Below, one piece after another: positions 12,844-25,776 of a stretch of DNA of 64,000 nt. The DNA comes from Janthinobacterium sp. (GTDB taxonomy: Bacteria; Pseudomonadota; Gammaproteobacteria; Burkholderiales; Chitinibacteraceae). The translations under genes were made by a program, and so were the position numbers. Below the pieces are notes generated by a model. That model made no database searches and was not told the origin of the DNA. It was given only the letters and a program-made list of their open reading frames with translations. The DNA lies in assembly GCA_025360045.1 (NCBI GenBank), contig JANYCY010000033.1, forward strand, positions 1-64,000, given 5' to 3'. Position 1 is the stretch's first letter, and each line of letters starts with the position of its first letter.

Positions 12844-12871
12844 AAATATACCAACAAATATACCAACAATG
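12844..12871. repeat. Left copy of 28-bp end repeat (candidate integrase arm-type site)
   Basis: AAATATACCAACAAATATACCAACAATG, identical to 25564-25591. Confidence 0.75.
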
Positions 12872-12903: not shown

Positions 12904-14256
12904 ATGGGCGGTAAATCAAAAGCAGATGGCTTGACCATTTTGCAACTCAAAAGCCAAATAAAAGCTGAGCAACAGCACATTGCAGCCGAAACAGTAAAGC
13001 CACCCAGAAAGATAGCCTGTGGCGCTGGTTTGCAGCTTTGGGTGATGGGTGAAGCCATGTATTGGCGGCTGCCCTATCGCTTTGGCGGTAAGCAGAAGGT
13101 ATTGGCGCTGGGCGTATGCAATCCTGCTAAGCCTGAACTGTCCGAAGCACGAGAAAAAGCACTCGAAGCAAAACGACAGCTTGCCGCTGGCCTAGATCCA
13201 AACCAAGCAAGGCAAGACGACAAACACGCCAAGGCTTATGCCCACGCCAACACCTTTGAAGCCGTCGCCTTAGAGTGGCACGCTAAAGAGCTGGCTAGCG
13301 GTACGTGGAAGCCTAAGCCTGCGCTGATTGTTATGCAAAGGCTCATCGCTAACCTGTTTCCCATGCTTGGCAAACGCCCTATTGAGTCATTAACCACCCG
13401 CGACCTGATGGGGCCGCTTAGAAAACTAGAATCAGCGGGCACGCTAAACGTTGCTAATCGCGTGCGACAGTACACGGCTAGCATCATGCGCCATGCTATC
13501 CAGACCGGACGGATAGATAAAAACCCAGCCTTAGACCTGCAAGGCGCTATCTCTTCGCCTAAAGCATCCCACCACCCCGCGCTACCCTTAAACCAACTCC
13601 CTGAACTATTACAGCGTATTCGCGGCTATACGGGCTTGCAAGTCGTGTGCTGTGCGGCTGAGTTTGCATTGCTCACTGGGGCGCGGTCTTCTGAATTTAG
13701 ATTTTCGCGCTGGTCTGAATTTGATCTAGTGGCGGGTATTTGGACTATTCCAGAAAAGCGTGAGGCCGTCGAAAATGTAAAGTATTCAGAACGGGGCGAA
13801 AAGATGGCCCGTGTAAGGGTTATTTATCTTTCCACACAAGCGGTCACATTATTAAAGTTTATTCAGTCAATCAATGGCAAAGAGCTATTTGTATTTAAAG
13901 GCCAAAAACGTGACACGCCATTAGGTGAAGGAACCATTAATCTAATGCTGAATAAATTAGGATATAGCACCCAGCTAGATATCTGCCTGCATGGTTTTAG
14001 AACCATGATGGTATCAAGCCTAAATGAATCACTTCAATTCAGCGCTGATGCAATTGAGCTTCATATCGGGCATGAAAGTAAAAATGAAGTCAGGGGTATT
14101 TATAATCGCAATGCTCAATATCTAGCAGAGCGCCAAAGAATGCTGCAATGGTGGGCGGATTACTTGCATGTTTTAGAAACAGGGACCTACATACCACCGG
14201 CTGATTTTAAGATTCAAGCGCTGCAAGAGCTGCCTAAGTTACGAGTGGTTGCGTAA
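12904..14256 (+). CDS. int: Tyrosine integrase with N-terminal arm-binding domain (P4-type)
   Basis: RLPYRFGGKQKVLALGVCNPAKPELSEAREKA arm domain; catalytic LLTGARSSEFRFSRW, HGFRTM, HIGHESKNEVRGIYNR. Confidence 0.93.
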   Translation: MGGKSKADGLTILQLKSQIKAEQQHIAAETVKPPRKIACGAGLQLWVMGEAMYWRLPYRFGGKQKVLALGVCNPAKPELSEAREKALEAKRQLAAGLDPNQARQDDKHAKAYAHANTFEAVALEWHAKELASGTWKPKPALIVMQRLIANLFPMLGKRPIESLTTRDLMGPLRKLESAGTLNVANRVRQYTASIMRHAIQTGRIDKNPALDLQGAISSPKASHHPALPLNQLPELLQRIRGYTGLQVVCCAAEFALLTGARSSEFRFSRWSEFDLVAGIWTIPEKREAVENVKYSERGEKMARVRVIYLSTQAVTLLKFIQSINGKELFVFKGQKRDTPLGEGTINLMLNKLGYSTQLDICLHGFRTMMVSSLNESLQFSADAIELHIGHESKNEVRGIYNRNAQYLAERQRMLQWWADYLHVLETGTYIPPADFKIQALQELPKLRVVA

Positions 14257-14408: not shown

Positions 14409-14695
14409 AAAACCGGCTACTGGTCACACGCAAGCCTTGTTTTTATTGAGTTCAACAAATACACGGGTTTTACAGCAGCACAAAAAAACAAAAAACAGGC
14501 GTTTTTTTGATGGTTTTTTATACGCAAAAAAACAGAGTCATATAATACCACTTTCTTACAAAATGCTTTTTTGCTTGGTTTTGTGGTGGGTTGGTACAAT
14601 GGGTAAGTAAGGGCTAGTCCGGCCAGATGAAAACGGGAAACCTTCACCCGCTGCCCTTGTTTCTTCTTGAAGGTTACTTGTTGAAGGGCAGGTAA

Positions 14696-15961: not shown

Positions 15962-16174
15962 ATGACGAGTATGCAATACACAATAGAAAGACTCCTGCCC
16001 TCCGAGGCTGCCAAGCTCCTTGGCAAAGCAGAAAGCACACTTACCCGTGAACGCTCGCGCGGCACTGGGTGCGCCTATTTAAAGGTAAATGGCCGCGTTC
16101 GCTACCTGAAGTCAGATATTGACGCTTACCTGGCAAAGCACAGCCAATCTGTACAGCCCAAGGCGGGTCAATAA
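15962..16174 (+). CDS. Small HTH (excisionase/AlpA-like) DNA-binding protein
   Basis: MQYTIERLLPSEAAKLLGKAESTLTRERSRGTGCAYLKVNGRVRYLKSDIDAYLA; winged-helix excisionase-like. Confidence 0.75.
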   Translation: MTSMQYTIERLLPSEAAKLLGKAESTLTRERSRGTGCAYLKVNGRVRYLKSDIDAYLAKHSQSVQPKAGQ

Positions 16175-16422
16175 TGGCGGCTAAAGTTATTTCCTTGCCC
16201 TGCCAGCCTACGGCACAACCAGCACAGCCCCTTGCTTTGATTAAGTTGCCTGAGGTTTTAAGGCGTACCGCGCTGGGCAAAACAACCATCTATACGCTGA
16301 TTAAATCCGGTGAATTTCCGGCTCAAATTTCTTTGGGTGGTAAATCAGTGGCGTTTATCGAATCAGAAGTAAATCAGTGGATTAGTGACCGTATTAGCGC
16401 TGCCCGTGGGGTGACGGCATGA
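16174..16422 (+). CDS. AlpA-family regulator
   Basis: LIKLPEVLRRTALGKTTIYTLIKSGEFPAQISLGGKSVAFIESEVNQWISDRI. Confidence 0.88.
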   Translation: MAAKVISLPCQPTAQPAQPLALIKLPEVLRRTALGKTTIYTLIKSGEFPAQISLGGKSVAFIESEVNQWISDRISAARGVTA

Positions 16423-16809: not shown

Positions 16810-17096
16810 ACCGACCATTTAGCGAAATAGGCGAAATTACATTAACCGACGGTAGCACGTTGAATATCGGCGAAACGGTGGCAATGATGGCCGCCAATAT
16901 GAAGGCGGATAACCTTGATTTTGACGTGGCCACCCTGCTAAACACCCAGATTGACGGCTTGCAAGCGTGCGAGTGTTTAAGCCCAGAAGCGACGGCGCGT
17001 TTTATGGGGGTAGCGGCGGGGCTGCTTATTCTGGCGCATGAAGTACAAGCCGCGTGTGGGTTAGTGCCTGCTTTACCTAAGGAGGGTTTGCATTGA
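16806..17096 (+). CDS. Hypothetical protein
   Basis: 96-aa ORF, ATGA-overlapped with both neighbours. Confidence 0.6.
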   Translation: MNRPFSEIGEITLTDGSTLNIGETVAMMAANMKADNLDFDVATLLNTQIDGLQACECLSPEATARFMGVAAGLLILAHEVQAACGLVPALPKEGLH

Positions 17097-17803
17097 AACC
17101 GATTACACAAGGCCATATTGTGCCATTTGCCTTGGGTGGCATTGAAGCGATTACAGCCGGTGAAGCGATGTTTGTATCAGTTCGGCATTTATGCGAAGTA
17201 TTCGGGCTTGATTTTAGTAGTCAGCGTAAAAAACTGCTGCCTGACCCTAAATTCAACTGTGGTGATATGACCATGGTTGCCGCTGATGGCAAGATGCGCG
17301 AGTTGCTAACGATCCCACTAGAACAGGTTGCAGGCTTTTTGTATTCGATCAACATCAATAAAGTAAGCCCTGATGTTCGCCAAGCTTTGCTTGATTACCA
17401 AGATGAATGCACCAAGGCATTGAACGATTACTGGACAACCGGCAAAGCAGAACAGCAAACCTTATCGACACAGATGGCCTTTCAGATTGCCGACACACTG
17501 GCGGTGTTTAAAGACGAATACGCGGCTATTTATGGCAAGGCGGCGGATGCGGTGCCGCATTCTGGCTTGTATGCCAAGATTCAGAGCTGCTTAAATCAGG
17601 TGGTATGCGGTGCTGATCGCCTGCCCGATGGGCTGGCCCGTCAAGCCTTGCCTAAAGTGGCGCTTGATCGACTCAAAGACGCGGGAAAAATGCTGCGTAA
17701 GTTGTTTATTCAGGGGGTAAAGCTCAAGGATGCGGCTAAGCAATTGCATAGCGCCTTTCCTGATCCGGTACTTAAGATTGAAACAACGGTAACGCTAGCA
17801 TGA
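17093..17803 (+). CDS. Phage antirepressor with P22_AR_N-like N-terminal domain
   Basis: IVPFALGGIEAITAGEAMFVSVRHLCEVFGLDFSSQRKKLLPDPKF...LTIPLEQVAGFLYSININKVSPDVRQALLDYQDEC. Confidence 0.88.
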   Translation: MKPITQGHIVPFALGGIEAITAGEAMFVSVRHLCEVFGLDFSSQRKKLLPDPKFNCGDMTMVAADGKMRELLTIPLEQVAGFLYSININKVSPDVRQALLDYQDECTKALNDYWTTGKAEQQTLSTQMAFQIADTLAVFKDEYAAIYGKAADAVPHSGLYAKIQSCLNQVVCGADRLPDGLARQALPKVALDRLKDAGKMLRKLFIQGVKLKDAAKQLHSAFPDPVLKIETTVTLA

Positions 17804-18231: not shown

Positions 18232-18534
18232 TCAAGCCGCGATGGGTATCACTTCTTGGTTGATTTGCTTGGCGCTGGTCGTGGCTGCAATCTTCAAATC
18301 GTAGGCGGATTGCAGATTAAGCCAGCTTTGCGCGTCCCCACCAAAGTACCGAGCCAAGCGCAAGGCGGTATCGGCACTAATGCTACGGCGTTCGCGCACA
18401 ATATCATTAATCCGCGTGGCGGGAACGTGCAAGGCCACAGCCAAGGCGCGGGCGCTCATCCCCAGCGGGATAAGGTAGTCTTTACGCAAAATCTCCCCCG
18501 CATGAATGGGGCGTATACCGTTGTTGACACTCAT
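18232..18534 (-). CDS. HigA/VapI-type XRE antitoxin
   Basis: IRPIHAGEILRKDYLIPLGMSARALAVALHVPATRINDIVRERRSISADTALRLARYFGGDAQSWLNLQSAYDLK. Confidence 0.9.
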   Translation of the reverse strand: MSVNNGIRPIHAGEILRKDYLIPLGMSARALAVALHVPATRINDIVRERRSISADTALRLARYFGGDAQSWLNLQSAYDLKIAATTSAKQINQEVIPIAA

Positions 18535-18839
18535 ACCGCGTACTTACGCAATATTTCCGGTGTGTCATTGGCGATTTTTAGCAGGGTTTGCGCGGCTTTG
18601 GATGGCTTACGCCTGCCTTGTTCCCATGCTTGCAAGGTCTTAGCAGATACACCCAGCAAGGCAGAAAAAGCGGCTTGTGATAACCCTGTCTTTGCACGCG
18701 CTGCGATGACGGCGGGTAGTGGGACTGGGTGGGTATCACCAGCTAGCATTTGCCTTACTGACTCTTCTAATTCGGCGGCAATATCGCGGTTAGCTTCAAA
18801 GGCGGTTAGCTCTTCATCGCTGAGTGGCTTCGATAACAT
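18531..18839 (-). CDS. YiaG/HigA2-type HTH antitoxin
   Basis: DIAAELEESVRQMLAGDTHPVPLPAVIAARAKTGLSQAAFSALLGVSAKTLQAWEQGRRKPSKAAQTLLKIA. Confidence 0.9.
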   Translation of the reverse strand: MLSKPLSDEELTAFEANRDIAAELEESVRQMLAGDTHPVPLPAVIAARAKTGLSQAAFSALLGVSAKTLQAWEQGRRKPSKAAQTLLKIANDTPEILRKYAV

Positions 18840-19134
18840 CTTTCAACTCCTTCAATTTATGGCCTGCAATGGCTCCGGTGGTGCTTTTGGCATACATAAA
18901 CAGCAAGACAGATTGCCCGTTCGCCATGCGGTTAAAGTAAATCACCCGTACACCACTGGATTTACCCGCCCCTTGGCGCTGCCAACGGATTTTTCTACAT
19001 CCGCCCGACTCTCGGACTACATCCCCAGCTTCGGGATGTTCTGCAAGGTGGGCGGCAAATTCGCCGCGCTCTTCTTCAGTCCAGTAATAAGGCCAAAGCC
19101 GTTGAAATACCGAGGTTTCAATAATTGTGTTCAT
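18814..19134 (-). CDS. RelE/HigB-type toxin
   Basis: MNTIIETSVFQRLWPYYWTEEERGEFAAHLAEHPEAGDVVRESGGCRKIRWQRQGAGKSSGVRVIYFNRMANGQSVLLFMYAKS; internal Met start at 19134. Confidence 0.88.
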   Translation of the reverse strand: MNTIIETSVFQRLWPYYWTEEERGEFAAHLAEHPEAGDVVRESGGCRKIRWQRQGAGKSSGVRVIYFNRMANGQSVLLFMYAKSTTGAIAGHKLKELKDVIEATQR

Positions 19135-19245
19135 TACTTCACTATACGCCAATGTAGGATAGTCCCACAAGGTAGGAGTAAACCACTTGACGCAAGCCGC
19201 AAGCTTGCCTATATTGGCCGTGCTGCATTCAATCATGCAGACGGG

Positions 19246-19296
19246 ATTGGACTCCCGAACGTTAAGGCGGACAAACCGCTACCCAGCGGCTTTTTT
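19246..19296 (+). promoter_or_regulatory. seqA-like element plus terminator, copy 1
   Basis: ATTGGACTcccgaacGTTAAGG (19246-19267) followed by CCGCTacccAGCGGcTTTTTT (19276-19296). Confidence 0.7.
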
Positions 19297-19329
19297 ACGT
19301 CCGTCAACACTATAGATGCGTCCTTTATG

Positions 19330-19400
19330 GCGGGTCGTAGTGGGGGCAGCTTCGGCTGCGCCGGTTTCCTTAACGCCGGTAGTCCAACCCTGCTACGGCC
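19330..19400 (+). ncRNA. C4/P4-CI-like antisense RNA, copy 1 (approximate ends)
   Basis: Hairpin GCAGC-TTCG-GCTGC, then loop CCGGtttCCTTAACgCCGG and GTAGTCCAAccctgCTAC. CCTTAAC (19368-19374) and AGTCCAA (19381-19387) are complementary to elements upstream and downstream. Confidence 0.72.
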
Positions 19401-19461
19401 TACCACCTTCGATTGGACTCGAAGCGGCGGGTTATTCAAACCTGTTAAGGAAGCATTCACC

Positions 19462-19611
19462 ATGCCCAAGCACGCCCGCGTCTTATTTTCCTATTGCACC
19501 GTCATTCTCCTTACCCTTGCCGTCGAGCGTGGCGCTTCTGTGGCCGTCATTCTGGCTACGCTAGCGACTTTTGCGCTGGTGCATGCGATAGGAGGGGCTA
19601 GCCATGAGTAA
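19462..19611 (+). CDS. Small hydrophobic kil-like/Icd-position protein, copy 1
   Basis: 49 aa MPKHARVLFSYCTVILLTLAVERGASVAVILATLATFALVHAIGGASHE; SD in GTTAAGGAAG, which is the seqC target of the antisense loop. Confidence 0.6.
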   Translation: MPKHARVLFSYCTVILLTLAVERGASVAVILATLATFALVHAIGGASHE

Positions 19612-19724
19612 TCATTTAAACCTGTGCCATGGCGTGACTGTCACGCATAAATTAAGCAACGTGCTTGACGCAAGCCGCAAGCTTGCCTATATTGGCCGTG
19701 CTGCATTCAATAGTGCAGACGGGA

Positions 19725-19774
19725 TTGGTCTCCCGAACATACAGGCGGACAAACCGCTACCCAGCGGCTTTTTT
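19725..19774 (+). promoter_or_regulatory. seqA-like element plus terminator, copy 2
   Basis: TTGGTCTcccgaacATACAGG (19725-19745) followed by CCGCTacccAGCGGcTTTTTT (19754-19774). Confidence 0.7.
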
Positions 19775-19807
19775 ACGTCCGTCAACACTATAGCTGCGTC
19801 CTTTATG

Positions 19808-19878
19808 GCGGGTCGTGGTGGGGGCTACTTCGGTAGCGCCGGTTTCCTGTATGCCGGTAGACCAACCCTATTACGGCC
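19808..19878 (+). ncRNA. C4/P4-CI-like antisense RNA, copy 2 (approximate ends)
   Basis: Hairpin GCTAC-TTCG-GTAGC (covaries with copy 1), loop CCGGtttCCTGTATgCCGG and GTAGACCAAccctattAC. Confidence 0.72.
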
Positions 19879-19939
19879 TGCCACCTTCGATTGGTCTCGG
19901 AGTGGTGGGTTACTAAACCCAATACAGGAAGCATCCACC

Positions 19940-20089
19940 ATGCCCAAGCACGCCCGCGTCTTATTCTCCTATTGCACCGTTATTCTCCTTACCCTTGCCC
20001 TCGAGCGTGGCGCTTCTGTGGCCGTCATTCTGGCTACGCTAGCGACTTTTGCGCTGGTGCATGCGATAGGAGGGGCTAGCCATGAATAA
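19940..20089 (+). CDS. Small hydrophobic kil-like/Icd-position protein, copy 2
   Basis: 49 aa MPKHARVLFSYCTVILLTLALERG...; one aa difference from copy 1; SD in ATACAGGAAG. Confidence 0.6.
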   Translation: MPKHARVLFSYCTVILLTLALERGASVAVILATLATFALVHAIGGASHE

Positions 20090-20327
20090 TCATTTAAACC
20101 TGCTCCAAACCGTGACGGTCACGCATTCGATGGCTAATGCCCATTTGGCAGCGGATGACTACATCCCGACAGCCGCAACGGATATGTATGTATCCATCGC
20201 GCTGCAATTGGCGTTTGAATGCCTGCAAGGGGTGAAGCATCCGCAAGATTGCTATTTTCAATCCTTGCTCGCGCTGGACTATTTACAGCCGGTGATAGCC
20301 TTGATTAAGGAGGCTAATCATGCGTAA
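20082..20327 (+). CDS. Hypothetical protein
   Basis: 81 aa, ATGA-type overlap with the preceding kil-like ORF; its N-terminus (M.NHLNL..TVTH) is duplicated at 19604. Confidence 0.6.
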   Translation: MNNHLNLLQTVTVTHSMANAHLAADDYIPTAATDMYVSIALQLAFECLQGVKHPQDCYFQSLLALDYLQPVIALIKEANHA

Positions 20328-20461: not shown

Positions 20462-20995
20462 ATGGAAAAAATCGCTATTGGTATAGCGGGCGGGGATTCT
20501 TGCGCCCAAGATTCAGGATTTAGTGGCTATTCAAGCCAGCCAAGCCGTCCAAACCCAGCAAGAAAGCCCAAGCGTAGCCGCAAACCGCATATTGAGCCTG
20601 AGCCGCTGGCTAGTGAGCAGGAAACACCACCGCCGACCATCTGGGGCTTGGAGGACTTAAAAGATGAGGATACGCGGCGCTTCTTTATGGCGTTTTCAGC
20701 GAGTCATTGTAATTCTAGCAATAACGCTACCGCCTTTATCTTGTGTCAATTTGAACAATTTAGCGCTGCGGATCGTCAAGCGAACAAAGCGCGGACATTA
20801 GCTGTTACGCACGGCTTGGAATCGCTGCTCATTGGCTTGGAACAAGCGTCTAATTTAGTGGATGCGGTATCGGCCTCGATGAGTAGTGGAGCGCCTTTAA
20901 ACGATCAAGCGGTGGCTAGTGCCTTAGCCGGTATTGTTGGGATTCTGGATCAGCACACCCGTACCGCCGGTGCGCTGGTGGATCTGACACTATGA
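20462..20995 (+). CDS. Hypothetical protein
   Basis: 177 aa; stop overlaps the primase start (ATGA). Confidence 0.65.
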   Translation: MEKIAIGIAGGDSCAQDSGFSGYSSQPSRPNPARKPKRSRKPHIEPEPLASEQETPPPTIWGLEDLKDEDTRRFFMAFSASHCNSSNNATAFILCQFEQFSAADRQANKARTLAVTHGLESLLIGLEQASNLVDAVSASMSSGAPLNDQAVASALAGIVGILDQHTRTAGALVDLTL

Positions 20996-22008
20996 CCGCC
21001 CGCCTTGATATAGCAGCCCTTAAAGATGCGGCCCGTGATCGTTGGCCCCTTATCTTGCAAGCCGCCGGTGTGGATCTGGCTTTTCTTAAAAACAAGCACG
21101 GCCCATGCCCTGTATGCGGTGGCAAAGACCGCTTTCGGTTTACCGACAAAGACGGGCGCGGCGGGCATATTTGTAATCAGCATTGCCCTGATGGCGGTGA
21201 CGGCTTCCGGCTGCTGATGGATTACCGTCAAAGCGACTTTATCAGCGCGGCGCGGTTTGTGGCTGAGGTATTAGGCGGCGCGGCTGTGGCGGCGATTGCA
21301 CCCAATGCGGCGGCCATAGCAGAGCGCAAGGCATTAGAAGACGCTGAGCAGCGGCGGGCATGGGAAAAAGCCAAGGCTGAGAATTTCGCCCTGTGGCATA
21401 GCAGCTTTCCTATTCAGGCCGATAGCACCGTGGGCCTGTATTTACGGCATAGGGGGCTAGCGCTGAGCGAGTACCCCAAGGCTTTACGCTTTAATCCGGC
21501 CTTGCCCTATTGGGATAAGGTGGATGGTAAGCTGATTAAGCTAGGCAACTATCCCGCCATGATTGCCGCCGTACAAGCGCCCAATGGCGGTGCGGTGGCG
21601 CTGCATAAAACCCACCTTCAAGCCAATGGTCACAAGGCCCAAGTCCCCAGCGTTAAAAAGTGGAGCGCTAAATCTGCTGATGCAAAAGGCGCGGCGGTGC
21701 GCTTGTTTCCTGCTGCTTCCCGTATGGCAGTAGCAGAAGGCATTGAAACCGCCTTAGCCGTTTATAGCGCTAATGCCTTGCCGGTATGGGCTGGCTTATC
21801 GGCCTTTGGCGTGGCGGCTATGGTATTGCCTGAGTATGTGCAAGAGGTGTTTATTTTTGCCGATCATGACGAAAACCAAACCGGCCAAAAAGCGGCTAAT
21901 CAACTGGCTGAACGGCTGATAAGCCAAGGCAAAACCGTAAGAGTTTTATACCCAAGCATCGCCGGTGTGGATTGGCTGGATGTACTAACAAAAGCAGAGA
22001 AGAAATAA
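20992..22008 (+). CDS. P4-alpha-like primase (zinc finger + Toprim)
   Basis: CPVCGGKDRFRFTDKDGRGGHICNQHC; Toprim VAEGIETALAVYSANALPVWAGLSAFG...VFIFADHDEN. Confidence 0.93.
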   Translation: MTARLDIAALKDAARDRWPLILQAAGVDLAFLKNKHGPCPVCGGKDRFRFTDKDGRGGHICNQHCPDGGDGFRLLMDYRQSDFISAARFVAEVLGGAAVAAIAPNAAAIAERKALEDAEQRRAWEKAKAENFALWHSSFPIQADSTVGLYLRHRGLALSEYPKALRFNPALPYWDKVDGKLIKLGNYPAMIAAVQAPNGGAVALHKTHLQANGHKAQVPSVKKWSAKSADAKGAAVRLFPAASRMAVAEGIETALAVYSANALPVWAGLSAFGVAAMVLPEYVQEVFIFADHDENQTGQKAANQLAERLISQGKTVRVLYPSIAGVDWLDVLTKAEKK

Positions 22009-23891
22009 TGACGGAAACCGTATTGATTGAAGGTTTAGGGGCGGATTTGGAGCGCCTTAAAAATCCAGAAACAACCCCGCCTTTAGGGGTAAAAGCAGAC
22101 GCTACCCAAACCGCCGCCAAACCTAAAGCAAAGGCTAAGACCAACACAGTAAAAACCAGTGGCGGCCATTTTAAAGCCAGCGATGAGGGTGTTTTTTATC
22201 AGGCTGATGAGGCGGAACCTAGAAAGATTTGCGGGCCGCTGTGGCTGGTGGCCCAAGTTAGAAACGTAGATGGTGCGGGCTGGGCGGTACTGGTTAAGCT
22301 GCATGATCTGGATGGCTGCGAGAAAGAGCACATGATCTCGCGCTCTAAGCTGCTATCGGATCAATCAAGCCGCGTATTAGAAGAGCTGGCCGACCTTGGC
22401 TTATGGTTTAGCTTTGCCCCAGATACTAAAAAGCTGTTGCTGCAATATTTGCAATCAGGGGCGGAAGTCCATAGGGCGCGATTAATTCCGGCTACAGGCT
22501 GGCATGAAGGGGCCTTTGTCTTGCCGGATGAAATTATAGGCCGTACTGATGAAGCATTAATCTACTCAGGCAAGCTTAAACCGCCCATAGGGGTAATGGG
22601 AACGCTTGAGGGCTGGCGCGATGGCGTGGCCCGTTTAGCGCTAGATAACCCGCTCTTTTTGCTAATGCTGGGTTCTGGTTTTGCAGGGCCGCTATTGCGT
22701 TTATCTGGCCTTGATTCTGGCGGCTTTCATATCGCTGGCTATTCAAAAACCGGTAAAAGCACGGTGTGCGATATGGCCGCTTCTATCTATGGAGCGCCTA
22801 AAGGCTACCGCCAAACATGGCACGGCACAGCCACCGGCATTGAATACACCAGTGCGGCTTTTAATGATCTGCCTTTAGTACTAGATGAGATTGGGCAAGC
22901 TGAGCCAAAGGCGGTAGATACCGTGGTGTATATGCTGAGCCAAGGGCAAGGCAAGGCGCGGGGCCGTGATAGCGGCGGCTTGCGTGAGGCTACGCGCTGG
23001 TGCTGCTTTGTGCTTTCAAATGGCGAACATGATCTAGCTACCCATTTAAAAATGGGCGGTAAAGAGATTAAAGCAGGGCAAGCGGTGCGCTTAATGTCAT
23101 TACCGGCTAGGCGGGTGCATGGTGCGCTGGATGAATTACACGGCTTTGCTGATACACCAGCGCTTTGTGCTGCGGTGGCCAATGCGGCTAAGTTGCATCA
23201 TGGTGCGGTAGGCCGTGCCTTTCTTGAATCACTGGCCCATGCTGATCGAGCACAGCTAACCCTTCAATTAAGGGAAGCGCTGAATAAGTTTGCGCTTGAA
23301 TGCGTGCCGGTGGCTGCATCTGGCCAAGTAAGACACGCGGCACAGTATTTTGCTTTAGCGGCGTATGCGGGAGAGCTGGCCAGTAGCTACAACCTGACCG
23401 GCTGGCCGCTGGGTACGGTGTGGAATGCGGCTAAAGTGATGTTTGCTGACTGGTTACAGCATCGAGGCGGCGCTGATGATGAGGAAAATAAGCAAATCAT
23501 TCGCCAAGCCCGCTATTTCTTTGAACAGCACGGCATGTCACGCTTTCATCGCTGGAATGATGAAGTCAACACCGTCATAGATACCCACGGCCCTAAAACG
23601 CTGGGGATGTGTGGCTTTGCTAAGACCGTGGATATTGCTATTAATGGGCAGTTTACGGACGTCAAAGCCTCTGAGGTCACGTATTACGTTTACCGTGAAT
23701 CATGGGCCAATGATGTGCTAAAAGACCGTGATTTAAAGCGGGCCAATAAGCTGCTACTTGAAATGGGCGTACTTACCCCCGCCAAAGATGGCAAAGCCTC
23801 ACAATCCAGAAAATTACCTGGCAGTGGCCGCGCTAATGTCGGGGTCTATGTGGTGAATCCGGCCATGCTTTACAGTGGTGGCGATGATTAG
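22008..23891 (+). CDS. DUF927-type replicative helicase/ATPase
   Basis: Walker A HIAGYSKTGKSTVCDMAASIYG, Walker B LPLVLDEIGQA; start at 22008 (TAATG overlap). Confidence 0.9.
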   Translation: MTETVLIEGLGADLERLKNPETTPPLGVKADATQTAAKPKAKAKTNTVKTSGGHFKASDEGVFYQADEAEPRKICGPLWLVAQVRNVDGAGWAVLVKLHDLDGCEKEHMISRSKLLSDQSSRVLEELADLGLWFSFAPDTKKLLLQYLQSGAEVHRARLIPATGWHEGAFVLPDEIIGRTDEALIYSGKLKPPIGVMGTLEGWRDGVARLALDNPLFLLMLGSGFAGPLLRLSGLDSGGFHIAGYSKTGKSTVCDMAASIYGAPKGYRQTWHGTATGIEYTSAAFNDLPLVLDEIGQAEPKAVDTVVYMLSQGQGKARGRDSGGLREATRWCCFVLSNGEHDLATHLKMGGKEIKAGQAVRLMSLPARRVHGALDELHGFADTPALCAAVANAAKLHHGAVGRAFLESLAHADRAQLTLQLREALNKFALECVPVAASGQVRHAAQYFALAAYAGELASSYNLTGWPLGTVWNAAKVMFADWLQHRGGADDEENKQIIRQARYFFEQHGMSRFHRWNDEVNTVIDTHGPKTLGMCGFAKTVDIAINGQFTDVKASEVTYYVYRESWANDVLKDRDLKRANKLLLEMGVLTPAKDGKASQSRKLPGSGRANVGVYVVNPAMLYSGGDD

Positions 23892-25563: not shown

Positions 25564-25591
25564 AAATATACCAACAAATATACCAACAATG
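25564..25591. repeat. Right copy of 28-bp end repeat (candidate integrase arm-type site)
   Basis: AAATATACCAACAAATATACCAACAATG, identical to 12844-12871; a further inverted copy TTGTTGGTATAT precedes it. Confidence 0.75.
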
Positions 25592-25701: not shown

Positions 25702-25776
25702 TGGTATCCCCGACAGGAATCGAACCTGTATCTAGCGCTTAGGAGGCACTTGTACTATCCGTTGTACTACGAGGAC
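25702..25776 (-). tRNA. tRNA-Arg (anticodon CCT)
   Basis: Reverse strand GTCCTCGTAGTACAACGGATAGTACAAGTGCCTCCTAAGCGCTAGATACAGGTTCGATTCCTGTCGGGGATACCA: 7-bp acceptor, TTCGATTC T-loop, CCT anticodon, encoded CCA. Confidence 0.95.

Follow-up and report, generated by a model that had tools for sequence, protein, structure and literature searches.

Two tandem C4/CI-type antisense RNA modules with different recognition letters precede the replication genes of an integrated element

In a 64,000-nucleotide stretch of Janthinobacterium sp. DNA (the window), we find two C4/CI-type antisense RNA modules arranged in tandem upstream of the replication genes of an integrated element. We read them as two complete, independently promoted modules of different specificity, serial locks that an integrated P4-like element would carry in front of its replication genes, and we give this reading a probability of about 0.6. 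The sequence shows, for each module, a promoter-like site of its own, a seqA leader with a terminator, a C4 RNA, and a seqC overlapping a Shine-Dalgarno sequence; the predicted recognition letters agree inside a module but not between the two. C4/CI RNAs are a textbook immunity mechanism, and RNAs of the C4 family are characteristically processed by RNase P to stable RNAs of about 77-90 nt. To our knowledge, C4/CI is known as one switch per phage.

Results

The repeat units differ by a matched set of recognition letters

Tandem Repeats Finder reported a single array at 19186-20126 with a period of 478 bp (2.0 copies, 91% matches, 0% indels), confirming the 478-bp tandem duplication described in the initial annotation. 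Re-reading the sequence, we found all of the motif coordinates given there to be correct. All module features, ORFs, and downstream genes described below are on the + strand. Each repeat unit runs in the order promoter-like site, leader with the a and b elements, terminator-like hairpin, C4 RNA, a and b again, and 49-aa ORF, and the second b element sits in the Shine-Dalgarno position.

In module 1, seqA-1 (19247-19267) consists of a, TTGGACT (19247-19253), and b, GTTAAGG (19261-19267), and is followed by a terminator-like hairpin, CCGCTACCCAGCGG, with a T run (19276-19296), which we read from the sequence. The C4 RNA (19323-19410) carries b' CCTTAAC (19368-19374) and a' AGTCCAA (19381-19387). 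The same a and b letters return in seqC-1 (19413-19450) at 19413-19419 and 19444-19450, the latter being the Shine-Dalgarno sequence of ORF 1 (19462-19611), a 49-aa frame read from the sequence and the predicted output of C4-1. Module 2 has TTGGTCT (19725-19731) and ATACAGG (19739-19745) in its seqA leader, b' CCTGTAT (19846-19852) and a' AGACCAA (19859-19865) in its C4 RNA (19801-19888), and TTGGTCT (19891-19897) and ATACAGG (19922-19928, the Shine-Dalgarno sequence of ORF 2) in seqC-2 (19891-19928). ORF 2 (19940-20089), the predicted output of C4-2, differs from ORF 1 at 4 of 150 nt, with one amino acid change (V to L). The a and b elements of both copies are exact 7-9 nt complements of their own C4 loops.

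Aligning the copies, we counted differences at 41 of 463 positions. Twelve of these form the matched recognition set, four each in seqA (copy 1 > copy 2: 19251 A>T, 19261 G>A, 19263 T>A, 19264 A>C), the C4 loops (19371 T>G, 19372 A>T, 19374 C>T, 19383 T>A), and seqC (19417 A>T, 19444 G>A, 19446 T>A, 19447 A>C). Every seqA change recurs in seqC and has its complement in the C4 RNA, so the alignment upholds the claim that four substituted positions are each matched in three places. One of the four letters lies in the a element and three in b. By a back-of-envelope estimate, given the 8.9% divergence and the four seqA changes, the chance of such a set is about (0.089/3)^8, or <1e-12. The C4 stems of both copies also keep their pairing despite the changes, with double compensations at 19348/19357 and 19349/19356.

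Both C4 RNAs belong to the family of phage P4 CI RNA

Searching with the Rfam C4 model (RF01695, gathering score 45), we recovered both C4 RNAs at full length with 73.5 and 75.4 bits, and the CI RNA of phage P4 scores 74.9 bits in the same family. The C4/CI identity that had been proposed from the letters is thus well founded. In both copies the a' and b' loops are complementary to elements upstream and downstream, with b over the Shine-Dalgarno sequence, as in the C4 family. The leaders at 19222-19296 and 19700-19774, each ending in a terminator, are isrK-like (RF01394; 41.1 bits with E 5e-7, and 39.7 bits), both below the gathering score of 50; the P4 leader reaches 60.8 bits. Another sub-gathering match (RF03163, 22.6 bits) lies at 19687-19739.

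A consensus scan placed candidate sigma70-like promoters, TTGACG-N17-TATATT (10 of 12 matches), at 19187-19215 and, identically, at 19665-19693. These were absent from the initial annotation. Their number is close to the chance expectation (2 found, 1.8 expected), and they are noteworthy by position only. As each unit has its own promoter-like site, the modules should be separately transcribed locks.

Downstream of module 2, an 81-aa ORF (20082-20327) overlaps the end of ORF 2. It is followed by a primase gene (20992-22008; Zn_Ribbon_Prim and Toprim_3; PHROG DNA primase, 1.1e-69) and a gene for a DUF927 replicative helicase/primase-like protein (21972-23891; 1e-64), both probable downstream targets. 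The order seqA leader with terminator, CI (seqB), seqC, small ORF, and replication genes is that of the P4 CI region, as had been claimed; sequence, domain matches, and the P4 control bear this out.

The end of ORF 1 is overlapped by a 161-aa ORF (19604-20089), which reads through module 2 and begins like a truncated, variant copy of the 81-aa gene. We found no Pfam or NCBIfam match for the 161-aa ORF, no convincing family in Pfam and NCBIfam for the ORF parts that span the C4 RNAs, and no Pfam or PHROG match for the 49-aa ORF. The 3' half of the latter (19522-19607 and 20000-20085) is nearly identical in nucleotides in both copies and in the congeners G001 and G008; the 5' half in G008 lacks this near-identity. 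The 3' half may carry more than a coding signal.

Computed pairing favors the own targets of each C4 RNA

Computing duplex energies, we obtained -33.8 kcal/mol for C4-1 with seqA-1 and -34.9 kcal/mol for C4-2 with seqA-2, against -21.4 and -22.6 kcal/mol for the crossed pairs. At seqC, the own duplexes gave -28.4 and -26.6 kcal/mol and the crossed ones -22.9 and -21.5 kcal/mol. The own-target advantage is therefore about 12 kcal/mol at seqA and 5 kcal/mol at seqC. These values describe isolated segments; we chose them over cofolding, as kissing loops lie outside the cofold model. Because kissing loops are not modelled, the cofold energies are small (for C4-1, -2.0 with seqC-2 vs -2.4 with its own seqC). 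The duplex energies, stronger for own than for crossed pairs, agree with the proposal that pairing is kept within a copy and weakened between copies. Each switch should thus recognize mainly itself, as far as computed orthogonality goes. Since the a elements of the two copies differ by a single letter and the crossed duplexes lie near -21 to -23 kcal/mol, partial cross-repression may occur.

As a control, we compared 47 distinct modules. The 7-mer complementarity to own targets was 0.96, 0.81, 0.98, and 0.91 (a upstream, b upstream, a downstream, b downstream), and that to the targets of other modules was 0.17, 0.06, 0.11, and 0.04. An identical parser recovered the P4 seqA and seqC around the CI RNA and the P1 elements as positive controls. 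As own targets far outmatch the others, we take the a/b architecture to be a general family property and not a chance occurrence here.

Congeners carry single modules with other letters

A near-identical element lies at the same site in G001 (98.6% identity over 2.8 kb upstream). It has one module, with the letters TTGGTCT/CACAAAG, and the single module of G008 has TTGGACT/TACAAGG. Together with TTGGACT/GTTAAGG and TTGGTCT/ATACAGG in the window, the a element occurs in two states and the b element in four. The 49-aa and 81-aa ORFs are conserved in both congeners.

The flanks upstream of copy 1 and downstream of copy 2 match G001, and, as in both congeners, module 2 directly adjoins the conserved downstream gene. 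Between the copies, the spacer holds a truncated and variant start of the 81-aa gene (MSNHLNLCHGVTVTH vs MNNHLNLLQTVTVTH). The genome is in 97 contigs with a contamination estimate of 1.15%, which might raise the suspicion that the assembly joined two elements or alleles. Such an artefact is highly improbable, however, given the unique spacer, the absence of indels, a longest stretch identical between the copies of well below 100 bp, and flanks collinear with the G001 element.

The initial annotation had explained the repeat by duplication followed by stepwise co-divergence in place. The near-identity of the promoter-proximal leader (2 of 60 positions differ), the terminator leader (1 of 54), and the ORF (4 of 150) would suit this history. 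The remainder is patchy, however, with 12 of 51 positions changed in the seqC leader against the 4 of 150 in the ORF, and the non-pairing differences are clustered (P = 0.003, simple permutation), although this clustering could also stem from unequal constraint along the module, stronger on promoter, terminator, and ORF. The relatives already have other a/b combinations, and the copy 2 stem variant TAC/GTA also occurs in G001 and G008; moreover, stepwise change would require three-site intermediates. We consider co-divergence quite unlikely. Instead, we infer that recombination joined modules of two heteroimmune relatives, which fits better because of the single third specificity in G001, the patchy divergence, and the truncated variant gene start in the spacer. 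We found no donor element.

Tandem modules of distinct specificity occur in four other genomes

We surveyed more than 1,100 genomes, scoring the best candidates per genome, and counted by hand about 370 C4 matches among the matches listed. Same-strand C4 neighbors within 1.5 kb occur in the genome of the window and in G173 (1.4 kb), G443 (1.3 kb), G1085 (0.9 kb), and G474; C4 pairs several kb apart (G156, G581, and G700) were left out of this count. The tandem modules in these four other genomes all have distinct, internally matched letters, so the arrangement is not unique to the window. In G173, reading by eye, we saw an antirepressor-like ORF after each module. G474 has four modules, at 1700, 2055, 2653, and 3007 of contig C9, each with a promoter-like site of its own, TTGACT-N18-GATAAT, and a terminator, inside an element with AlpA and DUF927 genes. 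Because the first 324 bases of another contig of this genome, C14, also occur identically within the array, the G474 assembly and its count of four modules are to be taken with caution. A BLAST search of the G474 array against phage and plasmid records returned nothing informative.

Among viral contigs, 29 loci show the C4 pattern. One tandem look-alike, L091, has an upstream C4 (4992-5080, - strand) beside an intact module; as this first C4 has no complementary seqA or seqC targets, we rejected L091 as a working pair. In a family relative, G014, at least 20 C4 RNAs are scattered over the genome, a set comparable with the Acinetobacter baumannii Group 1 RNAs.

Module 1 could be a passenger that has not yet decayed, left by a recent unequal recombination, with module 2 alone mattering. 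The direct junction of module 2 with the conserved downstream gene and the truncated variant of that gene in the spacer would be expected of such a by-product, and relics do occur, as the targetless C4 of L091 illustrates. Yet nothing is missing from module 1, in which the promoter-like site and terminator, the two target pairs, the C4 stems, and the ORF are all kept, and independent arrays with intact modules exist elsewhere, four modules in G474. We regard the by-product explanation as unlikely, albeit the strongest competitor; the array may have arisen by recombination only recently and not be maintained by selection.

The overlap of ORF 1 with the 161-aa ORF through module 2, and the similar overlapping ORFs that link the G474 modules, look relay-like. 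They would suit a serial timer or dose control inside one element, in which specificity changed only to avoid cross-silencing. An internal timer would have no need, however, of the wide specificity variation among single-module relatives, and we find this explanation rather improbable.

Discussion

Proposed working of the serial locks

Processing of a leader transcript yields CI/C4 RNA, which base-pairs with its targets and either blocks translation or favors termination ahead of the downstream genes (PMC4825925, PMC5320573, PMC12197685). We return to the reading of two serial locks. By analogy with P4 and P1/P7, each C4 RNA would be cut from its own leader transcript and would pair with its own seqA and seqC, keeping the 49-aa ORF from being translated and transcription from reaching the replication genes. 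Silence would require both C4 RNAs, because each promoter would be blocked by the C4 RNA of its own module alone, promoter 1 by C4-1 and promoter 2 by C4-2. Derepression of module 1 could spread through module 2 with ribosomes that translate the 161-aa ORF.

A dual resident would repress incoming elements of either type. In a single-type cell, the unmatched module of an incoming dual element would still drive expression of the element's replication genes, and only a dual resident would silence that element fully. Such a dual element should dominate both single types. More tentatively, and with the odds somewhat against it, mobile elements may build arrays of orthogonal C4/CI locks (two here, four in G474) from recombined cassettes of heteroimmune relatives, which would leave a resident immune to several rival types and able to invade hosts held by any single type.

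Comparison with known systems

The P4 CI region shares with the window an RF01695 RNA, an isrK-like leader with a terminator, seqC over a Shine-Dalgarno sequence, and replication genes downstream (PMC4825925), but it has one module, whereas here there are two with different letters and a promoter-like site each. In P1/P7 c4, the a' and b' loops likewise pair with a and b elements (PMC5320573, PMC12197685; P1 was checked here), and a 4-nt difference in a' separates the P1 and P7 immunity types (PMC5320573). There, however, the specificities are split between two phages and the output is icd/ant, whereas here one element holds both, before replication genes. The A. baumannii Group 1 RNAs are numerous C4-family RNAs with varied a' loops in one genome and processing at an RNase P-like site; unlike here, the parts of that report we draw on describe no tandem array with own matched seqA/seqC sets (PMC5320573). 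Gifsy-1 IsrK/STnc1160 also combines a leader sRNA with a terminator, a processed CI-like RNA, a regulated small ORF, and translational coupling (PMC4825925), but it is a single module with antirepressor/antiterminator genes as output.

The RNA family and the immunity design to which the parts belong are both known; the tandem multi-specificity arrangement appears to be new and undescribed, and the case for it from sequence is strong. Searching the open-access literature, we found no published description of tandem C4/CI modules with different specificity, in line with what the initial annotation had supposed.

If the array-building reading is true, satellites and prophages would have an RNA-based, extensible immunity repertoire, and multi-specificity arrays may let one element block several rivals. 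Natural arrays would also suggest how new immunity types could arise while the old one stays. With at least eight a/b combinations, they would be ready-made natural antisense RNA switches for studying how few letters set immunity.

Host element and neighborhood

Within its integrated element, the repeat is flanked on one side by genes for a tyrosine integrase (12904-14256, +) and an AlpA regulator (16174-16422, +) and by an int-alpA RNA (14607-14673, RNA match), and on the other by the primase and DUF927 genes; integrase and AlpA were identified by domain matches. A 28-bp direct repeat, AAATATACCAACAAATATACCAACAATG, occurs near both ends (12844-12871 and 25564-25591), the right copy just before a tRNA gene (25705-25776). 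This suggests that the repeat and the tRNA mark the element ends, and the repeat is likely linked to attachment sites. The element has the integrase and AlpA of P4-like satellites. As the element proteins scanned with Pfam and PHROGs include no homologues of psu, sid, delta, or epsilon (criteria of PMC8628076), we do not class it as a P4-like satellite. BLAST comparison of the array with phage and plasmid records was uninformative, and loci for the DUF927 protein numbered 0 in viral contigs and 2 in genome contigs, one of them apparently the G008 contig.

Just upstream of module 1 and divergent from it, RelE-like (weak, below cut-off) and Xre/HigA-like genes (18534-19236, -) likely form a toxin-antitoxin pair, with a further HTH gene at 18232-18534. 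The element also carries an antirepressor-like protein (P22_AR_N, 3.9e-31) at 17093-17803, upstream of the C4 array. Elsewhere in the genome of the window, a third C4 module (L003, G000:C83:81616-81701) has another matched letter set, ATTGGCGT / GCAAATGG.
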